Shown here one piece after another: positions 6,504 to 55,127 of a stretch of 64,000 nt of DNA. Made by a program: the position numbers and the translations under genes. The notes beneath the pieces are model-generated. The model did no database searches, was not told where the DNA came from, and saw only the letters and a program-made list of their open reading frames with translations. Numbering within the stretch: the first letter of the stretch is position 1; every line of letters starts with the position of its first letter. This DNA comes from Bythopirellula goksoeyrii (GTDB lineage: Bacteria; Planctomycetota; Planctomycetia; Pirellulales; Lacipirellulaceae), in the NCBI RefSeq assembly GCF_008065115.1, contig NZ_CP042913.1:4003658-4067657 (forward strand). Reading direction: 5' to 3'.

Positions 6504-7949
6504 TCAATTAGATGACTTGTGAGACATAAGAAATACAAAGCTAGTAAAAGTACTTCTATTAAAAACCAATTGAAGTAAGGCATATACCAGGGATCCAATT
6601 ATTATCGCACAAACAAGAAATAATATGCCATTAGAAATAAAACTGGGAAAGACTACCTTGATGAAGACTGCCGATCCGTAAACTATGGCAGAAAACATAC
6701 AGGGCTTAAAGAGTTGAAGAAAGTAATTGCCAAGTGTCAATTCTGTTATAGAAAGAGTGCGCGTTAAAGTGATAAGAAAGCAAATTGGATAGACGGTGAG
6801 CCATACAAGACACACTGTGACGATATTTCCCCAATAGCTGGCTGCGGCAAAACAAGGAACAAGTAAAGCAAGTGAGAAGAGATTATTGGTGGCCGCTTTG
6901 CCTGGTCGACCTAAACCAAACAACACTGTCGTGTTAATCGATTCAAGCAATCTCAGCGGCACGGGGATAGCCAACAGCCAGAGGGGCATTGCGACTGCTA
7001 CCCAGTCAGGTCCCAACAAAACTGAAACGATGTCAGAAGAAACTGATGCGATTCCGAAAAAAATCGGAAACGCAATAAATGAAATCATCCGAACGGCAAA
7101 AACGAACTTTCTAGTTGCTTCCTTAAGATCTAATTGAATTCTTGAGAATGCAGCAAATCCGACTTCGTTAAAGATTACAGTTACCTTTTGCATAGGTAGA
7201 GTGGCCAATTGCATAGCCACGGAATAGATACCAAGTTGTTCGTTGCCGAGAAACCTTCCGATAAAAAAAACATCGGCCTGAGTAGATAGATACCACAATA
7301 TTCTGTCCATTGACACTAAACCACCAAATTTCATCTCGGCTAAAAGCTTTCTTAACTCAAAGCTCGGACTATAGATTTTGCCAAGCACTATCCACAGTCC
7401 AATCATGTTAGCGATGGCAAAGCCTAGCGACCCGTAGACAAGTGCCCATACTCCCCACCCGGCAATAGCGAGTCCGAGGGTGGCAATGCTAGAGATGACT
7501 GCGCATAGAAACTCTACGACGGATTTTTTCTGAAATAGCATCTCCCGCTGAATTAAAGCTCGCGGAACGCTTGCTAAGGACGAGACAGGGAGTCTCAAAG
7601 CCAAACACTTCAATATTGCTGCCAAATCAGGCTCTTCAAAGAAGTTGGCAACCACGGATGAACACATATAGATTAGTAAATAGACAGTGATTCCGAATAC
7701 AATTACAAGTCCAAGGATGTTTTTTATATCAGAGTCAGCGAGTTGCCGCTTGTTTATAATAGCCGCCGAGAGTCCCATCTCCTCGAATAGTCCAAAAAAC
7801 CCTATGAACATTCCAGCAAGGGCCATCAACCCATAGTCGTTTGGTGATAGAATTCTAATTATGAATATCGTTGCTACCCATGTTACGAGTTGTGCCAACA
7901 GTCTAGCAGTGAGCAGCCAACGAAGTGAAGATAGGACTTCTGATCTCAT
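6504..7949 (-). CDS. wzx: Polysaccharide flippase (Wzx/WzxC-like, MOP superfamily)
   Basis: This 481-residue polytopic membrane protein has about 12-14 hydrophobic helices spread over its whole length. The N-terminus (RLLAQLVTWVATIFIIRILS, then PNDYGLMALAGMFIGFF) matches the opening signature of the oligosaccharide flippase family. It would move undecaprenyl-linked repeat units across the inner membrane. It is transcribed leftwards just upstream of asnB (143 bp apart), consistent with one EPS transcript. The ATG start is the first in frame. Family assignment is strong; the exact subtype (WzxC/colanic-acid-like versus others) is not. Confidence 0.8.
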   Translation of the reverse strand: MRSEVLSSLRWLLTARLLAQLVTWVATIFIIRILSPNDYGLMALAGMFIGFFGLFEEMGLSAAIINKRQLADSDIKNILGLVIVFGITVYLLIYMCSSVVANFFEEPDLAAILKCLALRLPVSSLASVPRALIQREMLFQKKSVVEFLCAVISSIATLGLAIAGWGVWALVYGSLGFAIANMIGLWIVLGKIYSPSFELRKLLAEMKFGGLVSMDRILWYLSTQADVFFIGRFLGNEQLGIYSVAMQLATLPMQKVTVIFNEVGFAAFSRIQLDLKEATRKFVFAVRMISFIAFPIFFGIASVSSDIVSVLLGPDWVAVAMPLWLLAIPVPLRLLESINTTVLFGLGRPGKAATNNLFSLALLVPCFAAASYWGNIVTVCLVWLTVYPICFLITLTRTLSITELTLGNYFLQLFKPCMFSAIVYGSAVFIKVVFPSFISNGILFLVCAIIIGSLVYALLQLVFNRSTFTSFVFLMSHKSSN

Positions 7950-8217
7950 TCTCGTCTATACCTTGCTTAGGAGATTCTGGAAAAACTGTTTTCAACGATG
8001 AGTGAGGCTACCCGAGGTGTTATTAAAAGCTCTGTTCTATTAAATCAGAAAAAGCGGCGTATAGTGTTGAGATTATTCACACTTCTATGGACTAATTTGG
8101 CTACAAGGATACGCTGTGGCCTGCCCCGAATAGAGACATCAGTATTTAAGTTACGTATTGTAGCGGTTGAATCTCACCCCAACTTGGTACCAGTTGTAAT
8201 GCTAGAAAACAAGATTT

Positions 8218-8241
8218 TCAGCCCAGGCAAGCCTGGGCTGA
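8218..8241. other. Strong perfect hairpin, 10-bp stem with 4-base loop
   Basis: The arms TCAGCCCAGG and CCTGGGCTGA are exact reverse complements around CAAG. It lies between the flippase promoter region and the IS5-type remnant. No clean T-tract follows on either strand, so a terminator role is doubtful. It may be the end of a mobile element or a protein-binding palindrome. The 7950-8217 stretch before it has no gene. It contains another IS-end-like motif (TGGCCTGCCCCGAA near 8118). Confidence 0.5.
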
Positions 8242-8249
8242 CAATTTGA

Positions 8250-8600
8250 AAAATTCTTTCGGTGTGCGGTGCCAATACGCACGAAGTGAAACTTCTGCAA
8301 GCGACCTTCGACAGTATTCCCATTAAACGCCCTCAACCTTCTTCTTCTCGGCATCACCACGTCTGTCTCGACAAAGGATACGATTCGCAGGACCTTCGCC
8401 AAATTCTTCACCGTCGCAACTATCGACCGCACATCACTTCCCGTGGGGAAGAACTGAAGCAGCTGAAAGCGAATCCTCGCTACAAAGCAAAGGGTTGGGT
8501 GGTAGAAAGCACACATTCTTGGACTAATCGTTTTAGTCGGCTCCTTATCCGCTGGGAGAAAAAGCCAAAAACTATCTGGCACTGAGACAACTATCATTTG
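8250..8600 (+). pseudogene. 5'-truncated IS5-family (DDE) transposase remnant
   Basis: An open frame of ~107 codons (from 8262, ending near 8585) matches the C-terminal third of IS5-group transposases. It shows GANTHEVKLLQATFD, then LDKGYDS with the second catalytic aspartate region, and the C-terminal signature WVVESTHSWTNRFSRLLIRW, which contains the catalytic glutamate. The N-terminal two thirds are missing: an in-frame TGA sits just before the remaining frame. It is therefore a dead fragment. It lies between divergent EPS genes and records past insertion. Family assignment is strong from the motif trio. Confidence 0.8.
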
Positions 8601-8933
8601 CTTGGACCAGTCTCAAGTGTGCCGGGGTACTGGGATAGACTGCAAAACTCGGCCTAAACAACCTTAGTTGCGTCTTCGAAAAATCCCAGATATCGCAGTA
8701 ATTCCGAATATAGCGACGAAAGCTTCTTAAAGGCCCTTCTTCGCGACATAGCAATCAAGTAGAAGGATATGCTAGGCTTCGTATGTGGCGTTAAAGTTGA
8801 CCTGACTTTCCCATCCACCCTCGTCTACCTATACTTTACGCCATGCTCTTCGGAACAGTTATTCGCACATCAATTGAACCAACCAAGCGCCGCACCTGCA
8901 TGGAGAGTGCTCGCGATTGGGGAGGCATCTTTC

Positions 8934-10691
8934 ATGTCAAGGCAGCCTAATAGGAAGCCACATTCCGGAGAACACTCCAGGCTCCAGTTTGAACTGCTGG
9001 AAACCCGGCACTTGTTCTCAGTCTCGCCCCTGGGTCCAGCACTCGTCCAGCCGGGTGGGATGATCGACGACGTTTCCATTATTCACATGAAGGAGCCCAC
9101 GGAAGGGGTTGTTGCTTCAGGCCCGACAGTCCAGCCCTTAGTGGATGTGCCACTGACCAACTTTCTCTTTCAGCCGATGATCTGGTCGCTAGAGAACACT
9201 TCGGTCAATGTGTTCACTTCTTTACAGCTCAACGGCGACTTCGAGGTGAACATCGATTCGGATTTGACGATCCAATGGACCAAGATCTCTGGTCCCGGTG
9301 ACGCGACATTTAACAACGCGTCTGCCGCCAATACGACGGTCCAGTTCGATCAGGTGGGCACCTACGAATTGCAACTTGAAGTGACTAACCACGGACAGAC
9401 ATCAGTTGCGTTCATGACAGTCGATGTTACTGCCCAAGTGCTGATACCTGAGCTCGACAGTTGGCTACAAAACATGATTAGCTATGGACAGCAACATGGC
9501 GATTCATTAGCAAACTATATTATAAGCAATAATCCAAGTGGAGCACTCGGTGCAACTTATTACGATGCTGCACGCGTGTTTTATCAAATCGCTGATCATA
9601 CGGGGGACTCTTCTTGGAATGCCTACGCCGAAATGGCGATCACGGTGTATCGAGACAACTACGTATTACCAAATGACGGCGGAGTCCCGGGTTACTGGAA
9701 TTTCTCACGGGGACTGGTAGAACACTTTGAGCGTACAGGTGACGATTTGTCAAGAGTGGCAGCGATTTCACTTTCTCACAATGCAGCATTCGCCGCTGAC
9801 GGGGTGCCACTATCATGGACGGAGAGTATAGATGCGAGTCGCGAGGTTGCCTATAGTATGATGAGCTATCTCGATGCGGAGCTCTTAGGTGAACCTCGCA
9901 GGGACCGATTGGGAGACTTATTCGAGCAGGCCTTGGGGCACTTAGATCAATGGTTTATTGAAGAAGCCGATCCAACTTATGCTCCTTTCATGTTTGCATT
10001 GACGGCAGACGCTCTTATGCAATATTACGAGCGTGTCGATCAAGATCCGCGCATCTTGGAAAAACTACTGTTGGGTGCTGAGTGGACCTGGAACCACGCT
10101 TGGAAACCTGAAGACGAAGCATTCTGGTATCGGCTTTCAGAGCAAGATAGTGCGCCAGACCTCAACCTCTTAATTGCCCCAGTCTACGAGTGGCTCTATC
10201 AAGAGACAGGGAACATGACTTTTCGTAATCAAGCCGACTCAATCTTCGCCGGTGGTGTCAAGCATTCGTACCTCAATGGGCCAAAGCAATTCAATCAAAA
10301 CTATCGAGTAAGTTTCGATTACGTAGCAATGCGACAGGCACAGACGTTACAACAAACAGATACTGAGCCATCATCCATAGTTTCTACACCGGAGAAAGAC
10401 CTTGGGTTCACATTAATTGGAATGAACCAGTTGGGTTATCCATTCGGACCAGATATTAGTGAAACATTCTTTGAGAGTGAAGAGGGGGAAGAAGTACCTC
10501 AGCACGCAGAGTTGGAGTCACAATTGACAGCAAAGAGCGACAATCTATTATCTCCATTTGTAAACGTAAATCAGGCCCCATTAAGAGCCTTCTCTGACTT
10601 GAGTATGGAAACTGAAGAAGACGAAGAGAACGAGTCTGATTTGACTTTTTCTCAGCTAGCTATGAATAGTGACTGGGCACTTAGGATTTAG
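8934..10691 (+). CDS. Secreted LEPR-XLL-like/PKD-like protein with an alpha/alpha-barrel domain
   Basis: The start at 8934 (585 residues) is chosen over an earlier in-frame ATG because GGGGAGG lies ~9 bp upstream. It also places the motif FELLETRHLFSVS near residue 28, which resembles the LEPR-XLL N-terminal export motif of planctomycetes. Residues ~70-170 look like a PKD/Ig-type beta domain (QWTKISGPGDATF ... VGTYELQLEVTN). Residues ~175-470 are a helical-hairpin barrel whose motifs (YYDAARVFYQIADHTGD, APDLNLLIAPVYEWLYQETG, FAGGVKHSYLNGPKQFNQNY) recur in the protein at 13565-14791. The C-terminal ~100 residues are acidic and low in complexity. It is probably an extracellular polysaccharide-modifying or -binding protein. 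Confidence 0.7.
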   Translation: MSRQPNRKPHSGEHSRLQFELLETRHLFSVSPLGPALVQPGGMIDDVSIIHMKEPTEGVVASGPTVQPLVDVPLTNFLFQPMIWSLENTSVNVFTSLQLNGDFEVNIDSDLTIQWTKISGPGDATFNNASAANTTVQFDQVGTYELQLEVTNHGQTSVAFMTVDVTAQVLIPELDSWLQNMISYGQQHGDSLANYIISNNPSGALGATYYDAARVFYQIADHTGDSSWNAYAEMAITVYRDNYVLPNDGGVPGYWNFSRGLVEHFERTGDDLSRVAAISLSHNAAFAADGVPLSWTESIDASREVAYSMMSYLDAELLGEPRRDRLGDLFEQALGHLDQWFIEEADPTYAPFMFALTADALMQYYERVDQDPRILEKLLLGAEWTWNHAWKPEDEAFWYRLSEQDSAPDLNLLIAPVYEWLYQETGNMTFRNQADSIFAGGVKHSYLNGPKQFNQNYRVSFDYVAMRQAQTLQQTDTEPSSIVSTPEKDLGFTLIGMNQLGYPFGPDISETFFESEEGEEVPQHAELESQLTAKSDNLLSPFVNVNQAPLRAFSDLSMETEEDEENESDLTFSQLAMNSDWALRI

Positions 10692-46665: not shown

Positions 46666-47376
46666 TTAGCTATACGCAGTAGTTGCCAATTTTTGACTAA
46701 GCCGACTGATGGCGGCGATCATGTCGCTCAATAGCTCAGCAAACAGTGAATTCAAATCTTCCTGGGCCGGGGACCGGCCTCCCTGGACAACGACCGAACC
46801 ATTGATTCTGGCTGTTTGGAAAGCAGAACTATCTATCCGAACTTTTTGATTCATGATCTTCAGATTTGGAGTAATCGCATGAATCATGTCCACAATACTT
46901 TGGGGATCGCGTCCAGTACGGGTCCGACCATCAAGACAATTGATAATCACGCGGGCTTGGAGTAAGGGATTCTCTAGCCGGGCTACTTCAATAATCTGCT
47001 CAACGACAGACAGGGGCTCAATCGCATCAAACTCAGGTTTGACTGGAATAAGCACAAAATCGCTGTGTTTCAAGAGTTCAACGTTGGTTTGTGTGGTACT
47101 CTGAAAACCACCCGGTGCATCGGCGACTGTAAACTGAAACTGTTCGGCCAGTTGTGGCAGCAAGTCGCGTAGCTCTGCCGCGTCTGCCGGCTGATAGATG
47201 GGAATCTCTGGTGCCGCTTGCCCCACGCTCGTAGTAAGTGATTTATTGCCATATTCTCCGGCATCCAGGTCAATGGCTGCCACGTTATGGCCTTTTTGGT
47301 GGAGCCAGACACATAGATTGCTGGCGAGGGCTGATTTGGTGACGCCACCCTTAGTGTGTGCGAAGGTAATATTCAT
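46666..47376 (-). CDS. parA: ParA-family partition ATPase
   Basis: This 236-residue deviant Walker ATPase has the P-loop HTKGGVTKSALASNL at residues 7-21 (KGGVTKS), Walker A' AAIDLDAGEYGN near 34-45 and Walker B FTVADAPGGFQS near 80-91. Its short length without an N-terminal HTH is that of type Ib plasmid ParA or orphan ParA proteins. It positions plasmid copies by dynamic binding to the nucleoid. A palindrome cluster lies 60-100 bp upstream. The partner gene follows. Confidence 0.87.
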   Translation of the reverse strand: MNITFAHTKGGVTKSALASNLCVWLHQKGHNVAAIDLDAGEYGNKSLTTSVGQAAPEIPIYQPADAAELRDLLPQLAEQFQFTVADAPGGFQSTTQTNVELLKHSDFVLIPVKPEFDAIEPLSVVEQIIEVARLENPLLQARVIINCLDGRTRTGRDPQSIVDMIHAITPNLKIMNQKVRIDSSAFQTARINGSVVVQGGRSPAQEDLNSLFAELLSDMIAAISRLSQKLATTAYS

Positions 47377-50393: not shown

Positions 50394-51827
50394 ATGGTGA
50401 TGGGAAAGGCAAAACACAAGCAGTCTCACGTGGAAGCGACTACCTCTGGTGTAGATGGCCTGAATCTCGTTGAGTTTCCTCTCTCAGTTCTTTCCACCAC
50501 GGCTCCTAAAGGAGTGAAGACTCTTGAGTTCAACGAAACTAAATGGGTCAACGGTGAGCCGCTCCACCAAAAACTCACCATCACAGGTTCCGACAAATAT
50601 GGCCTACCCACAATTACCCATCATAAGCTTCTTGTTGCTCTTTTGCAGTTATTCAATGAGCGGGGCAACTACGAAAATCCCCGGATCGAGTTCACCAGAT
50701 ATCAACTCTTGAAAAAACTCGGTTGGCCCGATGATGCCCACTATTACCGCCTGGCGAGAGAGTCCCTCAAGATCTGGAAGGGAGTCAACCTGTTCTATGA
50801 AAACGCCTGGTGGGTGGACGGCAAATTCAAAACCAAAGGGTTTTCGCTGATTGACGATTTTGAGTTGTTTGAAAAGAAGAGTCGGACTGGCAGACGAACG
50901 AAGCTTGAGCAGTCCGAAGACCCGTCTTATGTGGTGTTAGGGAGTGTCGTGGTGGAAGAGTTTCGCAAAGAACGCACGAAGGGCCTAGATTACCAGTTTT
51001 ATCTGCGACTCAAGTACCCGGTGTCAAAACAGCTCTATCGCTATCTGGATAAGTGGTTCTGGTATTCCCCTAGATTCAGGCATCCTGACGTATTGGTCTT
51101 TGCTCGCGAGAAAATCGGTCTGAGTCGCAACTACGATGCGGCCAACTTGAAGCGTTTGCTCGACAAAGGGATCAAAGAATTGACTGCTCAAGGCTACTTG
51201 CGTAAAGACGTGTTTTCAAAAAGGTATACCGACACGGGTGGCATCGAACTTAGAAGGAGCGCTACTAAGCCACCTCAGCAGGAAGTAAAGCCAGCGACTT
51301 TTCTCGAAGCAGAACTGCAAAAACGGGGGGTGACTACAGGTAGATTCAAGCCGACTTGTGCCGGCAGTCTGGTGGATTCGTTTCCAGAGCCACTCATCAC
51401 TGAAAAAATAGCGGTCCATGATTGGCTCCTGAAAAACTCGGATCCCAAAAACAAACAGAATCCAGCCGGCTATCTGGTAGATTCTATTCGCTACGGATGG
51501 CCAAATCCTGCCGGGTATAAGTCACAAGAAGAAAGTCAGGCAGAAGCCTTAGCGAGGCAAGGTGCGAAACAAAAGTTTGCTCAGCGACAACGCAAGCAAG
51601 AATTGGCGGAACAGGAACGCCAGCGAGCAGAGGAGGCAGCTTTCCAGGAATTTGTCGCAAAGTTGCGAGCGGAAGGAAACTACGATGATTTTGCCGACCG
51701 GTCTGTTCGCTCTGGACTTTTTAAGCACTATTATGACCAGAGTCTAAGAGATGGGAACTCCGCAGAAGCTCGCAAGTGGCAACTAAGGGCCATGAAAGCT
51801 CGCTGGCACAAGATTCGTGCAGCTTGA
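50394..51827 (+). CDS. repA: Plasmid replication initiator (RPA/RepA family)
   Basis: This 477-residue protein has the RPA-type winged-helix region: RNxxR-like start KTLEFNETKWVNG, IEFTRYQLLKKLGWPDDAHY, RLARESLKIWKGVNLFYENA, GLDYQFYLRLKYPVSKQLYR, and LSRNYDAANLKRLLDKGIKE. It resembles the pfam replication initiator protein A group found on plasmids. The last ~120 residues are a charged helix (KQKFAQRQRKQELAEQERQR) and a small tail domain. It would bind the iterons just upstream and open the origin. A second in-frame ATG lies at 50400. Confidence 0.82.
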   Translation: MVMGKAKHKQSHVEATTSGVDGLNLVEFPLSVLSTTAPKGVKTLEFNETKWVNGEPLHQKLTITGSDKYGLPTITHHKLLVALLQLFNERGNYENPRIEFTRYQLLKKLGWPDDAHYYRLARESLKIWKGVNLFYENAWWVDGKFKTKGFSLIDDFELFEKKSRTGRRTKLEQSEDPSYVVLGSVVVEEFRKERTKGLDYQFYLRLKYPVSKQLYRYLDKWFWYSPRFRHPDVLVFAREKIGLSRNYDAANLKRLLDKGIKELTAQGYLRKDVFSKRYTDTGGIELRRSATKPPQQEVKPATFLEAELQKRGVTTGRFKPTCAGSLVDSFPEPLITEKIAVHDWLLKNSDPKNKQNPAGYLVDSIRYGWPNPAGYKSQEESQAEALARQGAKQKFAQRQRKQELAEQERQRAEEAAFQEFVAKLRAEGNYDDFADRSVRSGLFKHYYDQSLRDGNSAEARKWQLRAMKARWHKIRAA

Positions 51828-51898: not shown

Positions 51899-52219
51899 TT
51901 AGAAGTTGTCCGATTCAGTCGCAGCAGCTCCCACAGGGAGCTGAGATTCCGAATCACCATTAGCTGAGCGAGCTGCGTAGTCAACTTGCATCTGCTCGTA
52001 CGCTTTTGTCTCCAGTTCTCGAAGAACGGCGATAACACGGGGGATATCGTCGAGCGAGAGATGGAGCACTTCGTTTTGCCATTTGTCATTCTGGTCTCTG
52101 TAAGACCGGGTAACACTTGGCGCATAAAACGCATTACCATTACCATCGAAATTTTGCCAGAGGGCTCCCTGGATATTTCGGCGGCGTGTTGCTTCTGTGA
52201 AGGGTCGTTTCTTAGCCAT
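51899..52219 (-). CDS. Small protein of the PC4-like/plasmid-accessory type
   Basis: This 106-residue protein starts at ATG with GAGG upstream. The core IQGALWQNFDGNGNAFYAPS, VTRSYRDQNDKWQNEVLHLS, then DDIPRVIAVLRELETKA follows the small beta-sheet plus helix layout (IW.N...g..f..v..sR.Y.D...W.....l..dDl..v..vl..A) seen in many short plasmid-encoded proteins, sometimes compared with PC4. A similar layout occurs at 61395-61679. Possibly single-strand nucleic-acid binding. The function is not established. Confidence 0.5.
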   Translation of the reverse strand: MAKKRPFTEATRRRNIQGALWQNFDGNGNAFYAPSVTRSYRDQNDKWQNEVLHLSLDDIPRVIAVLRELETKAYEQMQVDYAARSANGDSESQLPVGAAATESDNF

Positions 52220-52769
52220 TGTAGAACCTCACTTTCAATTAAAAAAGAGAAAACACCTTGGCCCTTAAACCGCTCATTCACTCCGCTAGCCTGATCAGGA
52301 TAATGGCACGTAGTTTCACACTAAGCAAATCTTTTCAACTCCTGTTTGATTTTAGGTGCCGTGGTCTGCTATGTTCCCCCTCGTCAGAGCGGCCATTGAT
52401 CAGGAGTGGTTTGCTCGTGTTGTCAAGAACTGCAGAGAGGGCAATTCCCCCTCTCGACAGAAGATTGCACATCATCCAGACCGCGAACACGACCCGGTAA
52501 ACTGGTCTTACCAGCCAGCTAAGGGGATGAGGGGAGTAATGACCCCAGAAACTGTGTTCATGGTGGAGCGGCGTGCTCCGAGAGGGGCTTGCGCCAGGGC
52601 GGTGAATCAAAGCATTGAAGCTTTGCCTTTTCACCCGTTTCAGCAAAAGGAGTAGGCAGGATGCTTGCTCGTGAAATGTGGACCCTACAGTAGCTCACTT
52701 TTTGCCGGAAAGGATTCCAGCAACGATTTGAGTTCAGCTCGAAGGAGGCTTGCGTGAAGTAATCCTTAA
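52220..52769. other. Non-coding lead-in to the structured RNA region
   Basis: No supported gene. Open frames exist on both strands (52335-52655) but mirror one another and lack domain character. A few hairpins (CTGGT/ACCAG near 52503, GGAGC/GCTCC near 52566) suggest that the structured transcript may begin here. Confidence 0.35.
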
Positions 52770-54150
52770 AGAGCAGCGACTTCCTCTGTTTCGAAGTCGC
52801 TGAAGTTTGAGAGTAATCTCCGCATTCGATCCTGTGAATCAAGGGACCAAGGCTTGTTTTAGTAAAAAGGTCCTTTGGGGATGTACGGCGACCGTGAAAT
52901 GTTGCTTGCACTATCTACCAATCATGGTGCAAGTGGTCGTTACAGTGAGTCTTTGGAGAACAAAGGCTCAAACAACAAGGAAGTTGTTCCAAAGCAGGTA
53001 CCATTGCCAAAGCGGCGTGAATCCTGCACACGGGGTTCGCTGTACTGAGTCTTGTTTCTCAGTATGGCCTTGTGGACCATCCAATGGGATGGCCTGTTCA
53101 ACGTGTCACCCAATGCGGAGTTGTCATGGTGGGTTAGGCCCTCTTTGGGGCTGAACACCAGGCATCGCGTACCGAACTGTACGCGGGGGTTGCCAGAAAA
53201 GGGCAATCGGCAGAAGAGCTGAAGCATTACATGGGAGTAATCCCTATGGGTGTGGAACCTGGCAGAGCTGGGCAGTCAAACTGGGACCATTCAAGTGCGT
53301 GGGGTAAGCGGAGCCTACTACTCCGTATGCTGAAAGGTTTATCAGGTCGAAAGACCTGGACAGAGAGAGTCTCTGGTCGCAACTATGACCTGGGTTTAAC
53401 CAGGCACATAGCGCATTTGAACCGTGGGTCATACCACTTACCGACAGGACTGCCAGGTAGGGCGAAGAGAGAGTTTCGCTCGCAATCTGGCTGTAACTAA
53501 ACGGGGAAGCTTAAGCCGTAGTGTGTCGAGTTCATCACTCGGACTACTTGGGGGCTGGATACCTCTCTTCATGGAGGTCCAGTCGGTTACTACTCAAGTT
53601 GGAAGCTGCGGTACGGGAGTGTGGGTCAAGTAGAGGTTGCTAACGGGAAGCGATGGCTTTAACCCATCGTGGACTCGGCAAGAGGCAGTGAAGTTTCTTG
53701 AGCAAGGAGCGGGCCGGGAGAGATACCCGGGCACTGGAAGTTGGAATCTTCTCGTGTGGCGACAGTCCAAGGCTCTTGGCAGGTAACGCGTGGTGGCGAC
53801 CAATTAAATGCCTACTCGAAAGACCCGACCATGAGAGTGCATGCCTTCCGGGGTATGTCCTCTGCAAAATTGGTCTGGATGATGGCTCTTTTCCCGGACA
53901 AGTGACGGCCAAAGGATTGGCGTCACTTGGAAGGGGAGGGGATTCGGTTTAACGGATGCTTCGCTATCGGACGAGATTTTCGGGTTTAACCGGGAATGTT
54001 TTCTGACGGTGACGAGACAGCATACAGGGGAGTTGCGCCTTGCGCCCGACAAATCTGTGGCTGGAGGTTTTGAGATGTTTTTTCAAACGACCCGTCATTA
54101 CATGCCGGGGCGTATTTCTGGAGTAGACGCACCGGCATAAATCGGTGCTC
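52770..54150 (+). ncRNA. Candidate large structured (ornate) non-coding RNA
   Basis: About 1.4 kb without a plausible ORF but dense in perfect stems. Examples: AGCGACTTC/GAAGTCGCT (52775-52801); CTTGCAC/GTGCAAG (52905-52933); CGCGTAC/GTACGCG (53166-53185); CAGGTC-GAAA-GACCTG (53343-53358), a GNRA-capped helix on the plus strand; CGAGT/ACTCG (53527-53541); AAGTGAC/GTCACTT enclosing GCCA/TGGC (53900-53928); GCACCG/CGGTGC (54129-54148). The plus strand is purine-rich. It lies upstream of, and in line with, a 252-residue protein gene. No group I or II intron core or domain V was found. The limits are approximate. Confidence 0.5.
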
Positions 54151-54368: not shown

Positions 54369-55127
54369 ATGGCAAGAGAAGAGTATCGGTACCTGATTGA
54401 TAATTTGGCGGGCTTGGTTCGCATCATCGAAAAAACCATCCACTACAAGCCGTGGTATGCCACAGGAGTTGTTTCAGAGCGATTTCGGGATTGTCCTTTG
54501 GAGCACGACCGGCGGATGATCAAGCTCTATGATACTGCTGCCCCCAAGTGGGACACCTGGCGGCGAAAAAAGCAGGGAATGGCTCGCTACAAGTATCTGC
54601 GATTTGAAAACACATGGTGGTTGTTTGCCAGTTCTGGGGAGCGATCCTTGATGGAAGAGCGTAATCAGGTGCATCACATTCGAGACGTTCCCATCAAGTT
54701 CGAGGGCTACTCGATTCGCCTGAGGCAGGGGGGCTTTGAGCGGAGAAGCCGGGAAGAGAGAATTCGTGTGAACCGTGAATGGGACACCTACAAAGAGGCC
54801 AAGGCGCGGGGTAAACATGCGGCCAAGCCTGCCAGAGCCAAGCGTCATCAGCGGCAAGTTGCTAGTGTGCGGATTGAACGCGGGGCACTGGAAGGGTTAG
54901 AGATGGAGGTCGTAAAACTGGCCCGCAAGGGAAAGCGTCATCAGGTAGCCACCTGGTTTTTTCAACTGGAATTCAGCCCCTACCGGCCTGTCTATGAACA
55001 GCAAAAAACGATCCTCCGCAAAGTCAACAAGGTGCTGGGAGCCCGGGGTATCGAAAAACTTCCTACCAGTATCATTCGCTGGAAACGGGAAAACACCCAG
55101 GCTTATGCTCGGATTGAGACAGTTTGA
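54369..55127 (+). CDS. Unknown protein downstream of the candidate giant RNA
   Basis: This 252-residue basic protein has GAGGAG ~10 bp before its ATG. Visible blocks are KYLRFENTWWLFASSGE, RDVPIKFEGYSIRLRQGGF, a Lys/Arg/Ala-rich linker (residues ~145-165), VASVRIERGALEGLEMEVVK, and FFQLEFSPYRPVYEQQKTIL followed by RKVNKVLGARGIEKLP. Conserved-looking aromatic and Gly-Tyr motifs suggest a folded nucleic-acid-binding domain. I have a vague sense of related unannotated proteins but cannot name the family. Co-orientation with the hairpin-rich region suggests an RNA-protein pair. Confidence 0.6.
   Translation: MAREEYRYLIDNLAGLVRIIEKTIHYKPWYATGVVSERFRDCPLEHDRRMIKLYDTAAPKWDTWRRKKQGMARYKYLRFENTWWLFASSGERSLMEERNQVHHIRDVPIKFEGYSIRLRQGGFERRSREERIRVNREWDTYKEAKARGKHAAKPARAKRHQRQVASVRIERGALEGLEMEVVKLARKGKRHQVATWFFQLEFSPYRPVYEQQKTILRKVNKVLGARGIEKLPTSIIRWKRENTQAYARIETV

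Follow-up and report, generated by a model that had tools for sequence, protein, structure and literature searches.

A putative circularly permuted group II ribozyme with a split domain 5, and its AcpG neighbour of predicted reverse transcriptase-like fold, in a plasmid-type module of Bythopirellula goksoeyrii

To our knowledge, only a few large natural ribozymes lack a known role, and circularly permuted (CP) group II RNAs belong to this small set. The class was published in 2021 as "T-large" RNA (Roth et al. 2021, PMC8637638), and the excerpts of that report on which this text draws throughout describe (i) domains 5 and 6 (D5-D6) in front as the mark of the class, giving the order D5-D6-D1-D2-D3-D4, (ii) reversed internal splice sites with the motifs GGGCG (5′) and NU (3′), (iii) the CP-specific elements P1 and P2 before D5, (iv) a pseudoknot between the P2 loop and the D2 loop, and (v) an accompanying protein of unknown function, AcpG, for which the excerpts report no homology. 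They likewise state that no intron protein was found with CP RNAs and that open reading frames (ORFs) for such proteins never occur within or near them. The stretch considered here, 64,000 nucleotides of Bythopirellula goksoeyrii (contig NZ_CP042913.1, positions 4,003,658 to 4,067,657; hereafter the window), carries a large structured RNA on its plus strand at about 52485-54010, in the order P1-P2-D5-D6-D1 to D4, which on sequence grounds is classed as a CP group II ribozyme of a planctomycete plasmid-type module. The gene directly downstream encodes a homologue of AcpG (TTHC007). The class itself being known, what is new is a variant with a split D5 and the splice-site nucleotides C1/G(-2), together with a reading of AcpG as reverse transcriptase (RT)-like.

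The class assignment comes from the relatives of the window RNA. RF00029, the Rfam model for D5-D6 of group II introns, matches the RNAs upstream of the protein gene in four relatives above the gathering score (44-48 bits), always near the 5′ end of the RNA and about 1.2-1.4 kb before the protein gene; this D5-D6-first layout identifies them as CP group II RNAs. R1, a covariance model built from 42 D5-D6 sequences of relatives, matches the window at 52727-52835 (42 bits, E 1e-7) and, over the first half of D5, at 52563-52611 (18.6 bits), while nhmmer matches the D6 region (E 3.5e-8). Together they place D5-D6 within 52563-52835, 5′ of the covarying helices of D1-D4, and the canonical group II order (D1 to D6, with D5-D6 at the 3′ end) is absent from this RNA. 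R1 also matches a second copy that this genome carries (44 bits), the CP RNA published for pPNAP05 (31.8 bits, E 6e-6), where GGGCGACGCAGAAA follows, and, weakly, that of pTT8 (16.5 bits, E 1e-3, with filters off on a 2-kb stretch), where the match is divergent from TTHC007 in agreement with the published orientation. GGGCGA comes after the R1 match on both plasmids; the alignment of relatives runs D5, D6, the 3′ splice site ..GAU, a short linker, and GGGCGA. The published splice-site consensus is present in 42 of the 44 aligned sequences; the window and the second copy have CGGCGA and GU, in which NU holds and the first G differs.

The original prediction had implied a new class of giant RNA, unrelated to group II introns. 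An Rfam scan of the whole window indeed gave no match at the gathering score and nothing credible at E up to 5. Rfam 15 at gathering is equally blank on the plasmids of published CP RNA members, so the scan of the window alone could not name the class, and the idea of a new class is refuted by the RF00029 matches in relatives and the R1 matches on published CP RNAs. Further R1 matches of 30-45 bits in other planctomycetes resemble ordinary group II introns and were left uncounted; a fuzzy-motif scan of Thermus and Polaromonas plasmids returned only noise.

The RNA and the adjoining gene are divided as follows, all on the plus strand:

52485..52558, P1 and P2 region: stem 52485-52491/52551-52558 around hairpins 52493-52525 and 52526-52548
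52559..52564, helix strand just 5′ of D5: pairs with 53828-53833, 96% canonical over 44 sequences
52566..52595, first part of D5: strand 52566-52579 with the AGC triad at 52567-52569, GAGA tetraloop 52580-52583, strand 52584-52595 with a bulge at 52589-52591
52596..52736, D5 insert: 141 nucleotides (nt), splitting the 3′ strand of D5
52737..52740, last four nucleotides of D5 (GCUC): pair with G52566-C52569 in the consensus structure, closing the AGC stem
52743..52833, D6: GUAAUC strands of an internal loop, which are conserved, and A52829 as bulged branch point
52836..52885, circle predicted to be excised: 50 nt from the 3′ splice site (after ..CCUGU) to the 5′ splice site (before CGGCGA), both sites placed by alignment
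52886..53504, D1: basal helix 52892-52895/53501-53504 and about 15 more helices, from covariation
53513..53614, D2-like domain: covarying 10-pair basal helix 53513-53522/53605-53614, assigned by order after D1
53623..53826, D3-like domain: basal helix 53623-53627/53822-53826 with 100% canonical pairs across the 44 sequences, assigned by order
53947..54007, tentative D4-like 3′ stem-loop: 16-pair consensus helix, poorly paired in the window copy
54369..55127, acpG homologue: 252 amino acids, directly downstream of the RNA, with a predicted group II RT-like fold lacking the catalytic aspartates

The window RNA shares with published CP RNAs the domain order, the reversed internal splice sites, P1/P2 before D5, the branch-point A, the AcpG neighbour, and the plasmid setting. 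It is longer (about 1.5 kb against about 0.9 kb) and differs in its D5 insert and in having C1/G(-2) for G1/A(-2). The hallmarks seen in it are the AGC triad and bulge of the interrupted D5 and the bulged A52829 of D6, which is invariant in 44 of 44 sequences. The original prediction had found no group II domain V. Its RNA started at 52770, about 285 nt too far right (P1/P2 lie at 52485-52548 and D5 begins at 52566), and D5, at 52566-52595 and 52737-52740, fell outside its coordinates and is split by the insert. An initial D5 candidate at 52690-52735 ("UAGCUCAC..UUGAGUU") was dropped because the second copy has GACUC there and the hairpin belongs to the insert.

Other claims made from the letters of 52770-54150 were borne out. 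Perfect hairpins with stems of 6 bp and longer number 12 in this stretch, compared with 3.1 ± 2.2 after dinucleotide shuffling (0 of 200 shuffles reach 12), and the CAGGTC-GAAA-GACCTG hairpin that had been singled out lies at 53343-53358. The plus strand, proposed as the strand of a giant structured RNA, folds with z-scores of -5.1 (52801), -4.9 (52901), -4.0 (53301), and -4.2 (53801) in 200-nt segments starting at these positions, those of the minus strand being mostly weaker. The purine bias claimed for the plus strand is present and modest (54%), and the ORFs are, as had been said, not protein-like: they are short and overlap across several frames. A likeness to GOLLD, ROOL, and OLE holds for size and stem density and goes no further, as no shared motif was found and none of the three models matches the window at gathering or among the matches with E up to 5. 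A blastn search of the region against plasmids found no match, and scans for promoters and terminators gave no more than chance.

Massive covariation supports the structure. It was measured on an alignment of 44 sequences and 1106 columns with our own average-product-corrected G statistic rather than R-scape, the sequences being weighted for similarity without a tree-based null. All of the top 50 column pairs are at least 80% canonical, as are 99 of the top 100, against a background of 6.9%, and the covarying pairs build the long-range helices of D1, D2, and D3. The stems of the P1/P2 region covary in the 44 relatives, the outer one being only partly paired in the window copy. The P2 loop-D2 loop pseudoknot of the published model is reflected in covariation of columns 169-171/1630-1632 in relatives, and the window sequence has gaps at its D2 loop columns. 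A covariation search for a pairing of intron-binding site 1 with exon-binding site 1 (IBS1-EBS1) gave no clear partner. The consensus structure comprises 221 pairs, of which the window forms 76%, compared with 35-42% when partners are shifted.

The window copy and the second copy, which is 90% identical and followed by the same protein gene, form a lineage with several departures from the family. The D5 insert is common to both and missing from nearly all relatives; a copy at 6.08 Mb of the same genome, which has normal splice sites, carries an insert of some 82 nt at this D5 site, opening with the same AGGGCGGU. The window copy and the second copy also have C as first intron nucleotide and G as penultimate one, in place of the G and A found in 42 of the 44 sequences. 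The predicted circle of 50 nt compares with a family median of 24 (range 12-142). Besides the window copy and the second copy, the genome has two more diverged ones. At one own-genome locus (G000:C1:3952000-3968000, 7739-9194), a copy with an undivided D5 is followed by an IS110-type transposase gene, with no acpG.

These departures, together with the lower pairing, would fit a lineage that has lost splicing and keeps its RNA for structure, as an AcpG-bound scaffold or as an antisense or replication-control RNA. On balance this is doubtful, if a possibility to be taken seriously. The AGC triad, tetraloop, branch-point A, and GGCGA are retained, and all 14 D5 pairs of the window are canonical, pairing being maintained by compensatory changes, as both partners differ between the two copies in four of these pairs. 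In group II introns, the first and the penultimate nucleotide of the intron contact each other during the second step of splicing (PMC3669008); the two splice-site changes fall on exactly this pair, so that the double change may be compensatory, a suggestion that rests on one lineage. Divergence between the copies can be read either way. Identity is 96% in the RNA core (D1 included), 92% in D6, 75% in the D5 insert, and 55% in the predicted circle; the low value for the circle would suit loss of splicing, but a neutral exon is also expected to give a variable circle. Third codon positions are 74% identical in acpG and 45% in repA. A core at 96%, set against the circle and the third positions of acpG, points to selection on the ribozyme body and not on the circle.

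The D5 of CP RNAs is interrupted elsewhere by ordinary group II introns, found at four loci (L040, L060, L064, and L069; Rfam 51-60 bits):

L064:196-2641, complete nested intron
L069:2524-4949, complete nested intron
L040, 544-640, truncated nested intron
L060, 7-133, truncated nested intron

The two complete introns start with GUGCGCC, encode an RT with maturase and HNH domains, and occupy the same site, directly after the D5 tetraloop. Their joined flanks, TGCACGGAGACG|TGCTTGTCC and TGCCGCGAGAGT|GGCTTGTCC, rebuild the D5 hairpin, which removal of the introns would accordingly be predicted to restore. These ORFs lie within CP RNAs, where the excerpts of Roth et al. (2021) have none.

Sequence searches of Pfam, NCBIfam, and PDB with the AcpG homologue of the window gave no match, and within the library of papers searched only Roth et al. 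(2021) was found to mention AcpG in this sense. Its place in the family is indicated by hhalign, in which the family profile matches five Thermus AcpGs (E 1.2e-6 over 171 columns), and by a Paraburkholderia relative that matches the pPNAP05 protein (E 2e-19). The fold is accessible through AlphaFold models of the window AcpG (pLDDT 93.9) and of AcpG from the gammaproteobacterium Thiocystis (pLDDT 97.0), both of which have group II intron RTs as best structural matches. For the Thiocystis model, the ten best matches consist entirely of group II or group II-like RTs, aligned over up to 190 of 200 residues with Z up to 9.6 and a root-mean-square deviation of 3.1-4.1, and all 50 matches listed are polymerases of the RT or RNA-dependent RNA polymerase (RdRp) type or Prp8. 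Prp8 matches the models at Z 7.7-7.9 (7.9 for Thiocystis). In the structure tool, a Z under 8 may reflect a common arrangement; the best AcpG matches exceed 8 and fall in one family. A viral structure library yielded no clear match.

At the sequence level, the AcpG profile aligned with ten intron RTs (hhalign -M 50, matched columns) scores 37.8 over 138 columns, which 0 of 200 column shuffles reach (maximum 27.5; reversed profile 13.7). The match is co-linear and full-length, laying YLRxxRxF of AcpG on YVRYADDF of the RTs and GYSI on FLGY. The catalytic aspartates of YxDD are lost: of 71 members, 57 have R at position 81, 48 have F or T at position 82, and none has DD. AcpG thus shares with intron-encoded RTs/maturases a profile alignment and the palm plus thumb fold, the latter seen in predicted structures only, and differs from them in its half size, in R81 and F/T82 for the aspartates, and in having no endonuclease domain. 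The sequence evidence is graded moderate because a run under another column rule did not rise above its nulls; combined with structure, the evidence is strong. Convergence on a palm/thumb-like arrangement, rather than descent from a group II RT, would account for the moderate Z and E-values and for the lack of Pfam RT matches, but it sits badly with a full-length co-linear alignment, with structural matches confined, among the 50 listed, to RT/RdRp-type polymerases and Prp8, and with an RNA partner that is itself a group II ribozyme, and is judged improbable. Descent from a group II intron RT, dead and kept as a maturase, is most likely on these models and alignments.

Among 392 genomes from the phylum, 8 contain AcpG relatives; GTDB genomes have them at 80 loci, mostly in Planctomycetota. 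Other hosts are Acidobacteriota, Hydrogenedentota, Omnitrophota, Verrucomicrobiota, metagenome-assembled genomes of Thermoleophilia and Bdellovibrionales, and Thiocystis; plasmids of Cyanobacteriota add further loci. Planctomycetota, Cyanobacteriota, Acidobacteriota, and the like are not named as hosts in the excerpts of Roth et al. (2021). A search of viral contigs with the AcpG protein found no relative. RNA and protein co-occur, with AcpG in 8 of 9 genomes that have a strong RNA match, and about 1.0-1.7 kb of conserved non-coding DNA precedes the protein gene in relatives. Unlike in published CP RNAs, acpG is co-oriented and directly downstream at nearly all loci studied here. On betaproteobacterial plasmids (L038, L142, and L033/L139), the CP RNA is on the strand opposite to acpG, like Thermus and unlike planctomycetes. 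Two CP RNAs lie 2.1 kb apart on Calothrix plasmid5 (L036, 2636-2740 and 4787-4882), with one AcpG gene found, and Lacipirellula limnantheis plasmid pI41_1 has a second, partial AcpG copy 5 kb past the first (L009, 15660-16184). On E. coli plasmid pSCU-171-2 (L140, 2567-4579), an AcpG relative is preceded by a 1.3-kb gene-free gap; this combination is seen on roughly ten E. coli plasmids some 30 kb in size, and R1 has no match there.

The plasmid-like surroundings noted in the original prediction are evident from two genes of the same module:

50394..51827, plus strand, replication initiator RepA (Pfam RPA, PF10134, E 8e-12), upstream of the RNA
46666..47376, minus strand, ParA-type partition ATPase

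In both copies, the stretch from repA to the CP RNA encodes a conserved 106-amino-acid protein of unknown family (window 51899-52219, minus strand; L007 8627-8947). Of 48 loci with full flanks, 26 have a RepA or ParA gene no more than 6 kb away, and such company could mean that the CP RNA works in plasmid replication or copy-number control, the circle being a by-product. The same neighbourhood would be expected of many plasmid genes, and pTT8 still replicates when most of its CP RNA gene is missing (excerpts of Roth et al. 2021, with reference to Aoki and Itoh 2007; complementation by a chromosomal copy may play a part), which makes a replication role unlikely. With these neighbours, a role in plasmid upkeep is possible, and any benefit to the plasmid is putative.

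The preferred reading is a CP group II ribozyme that yields a 50-nt circle and is helped by an RT-derived AcpG. The published CP chemistry predicts that bulged A52829 of D6 first attacks 52885/52886, the 5′ splice site. The 3′ end set free in this way would go on to attack 52835/52836, the 3′ splice site, leaving two products: an RNA circle of 50 nt and a T-shaped branched RNA in which D5-D6 are linked to D1-D4. With a canonical bacterial group II intron and its RT (LtrA or GsI-IIC type), the window RNA shares elements of D5, D6, and D1, and branch-point chemistry is expected; it differs in its permuted order, in the absence of an RT ORF inside, and in these predicted products. AcpG would associate with the permuted ribozyme and keep its domains together, the task of maturases in introns and of Prp8 in the spliceosome.

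Several observations weigh against this reading. The window copy forms 76% of the consensus pairs where relatives form 91-98%, its D5 is split by the 141-nt insert, and both splice-site ends deviate (G1 to C, penultimate A to G). On the protein side, Pfam RT models do not match AcpG, structural Z of 9-10 and a Foldseek E of about 2e-3 are moderate, hhalign run with -M first gives an AcpG-RT score of 25.9, within its column-shuffle nulls (maximum 26.1 in 40), and the Thermus AcpG profile alone does not match RTs. The case is built from sequence and predicted structures, with splicing and expression of the RNA as predictions. Weighing these points, we put the probability of the reading as a whole at about 0.8. 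The fuller picture of AcpG as a catalytically dead group II RT, cut to palm and thumb and serving as dedicated maturase of a permuted ribozyme (here with a split D5 and G/A switched to C/G), in bacterial parallel to Prp8, appears probable.

If AcpG is a worn-down intron RT, the intron protein missing from CP RNAs has always sat beside them, and the maturase hypothesis becomes testable with one purified protein. The split D5 and the nested introns show how much the most conserved ribozyme domain tolerates. In Prp8, too, a dead protein of RT fold accompanies an RNA derived from group II; far larger and eukaryotic, it is a parallel to AcpG and not a member of its family. CP RNA and AcpG would then give bacteria a dead RT in the service of a group II-derived RNA, an arrangement thought to be ancestral to Prp8 and the spliceosome.
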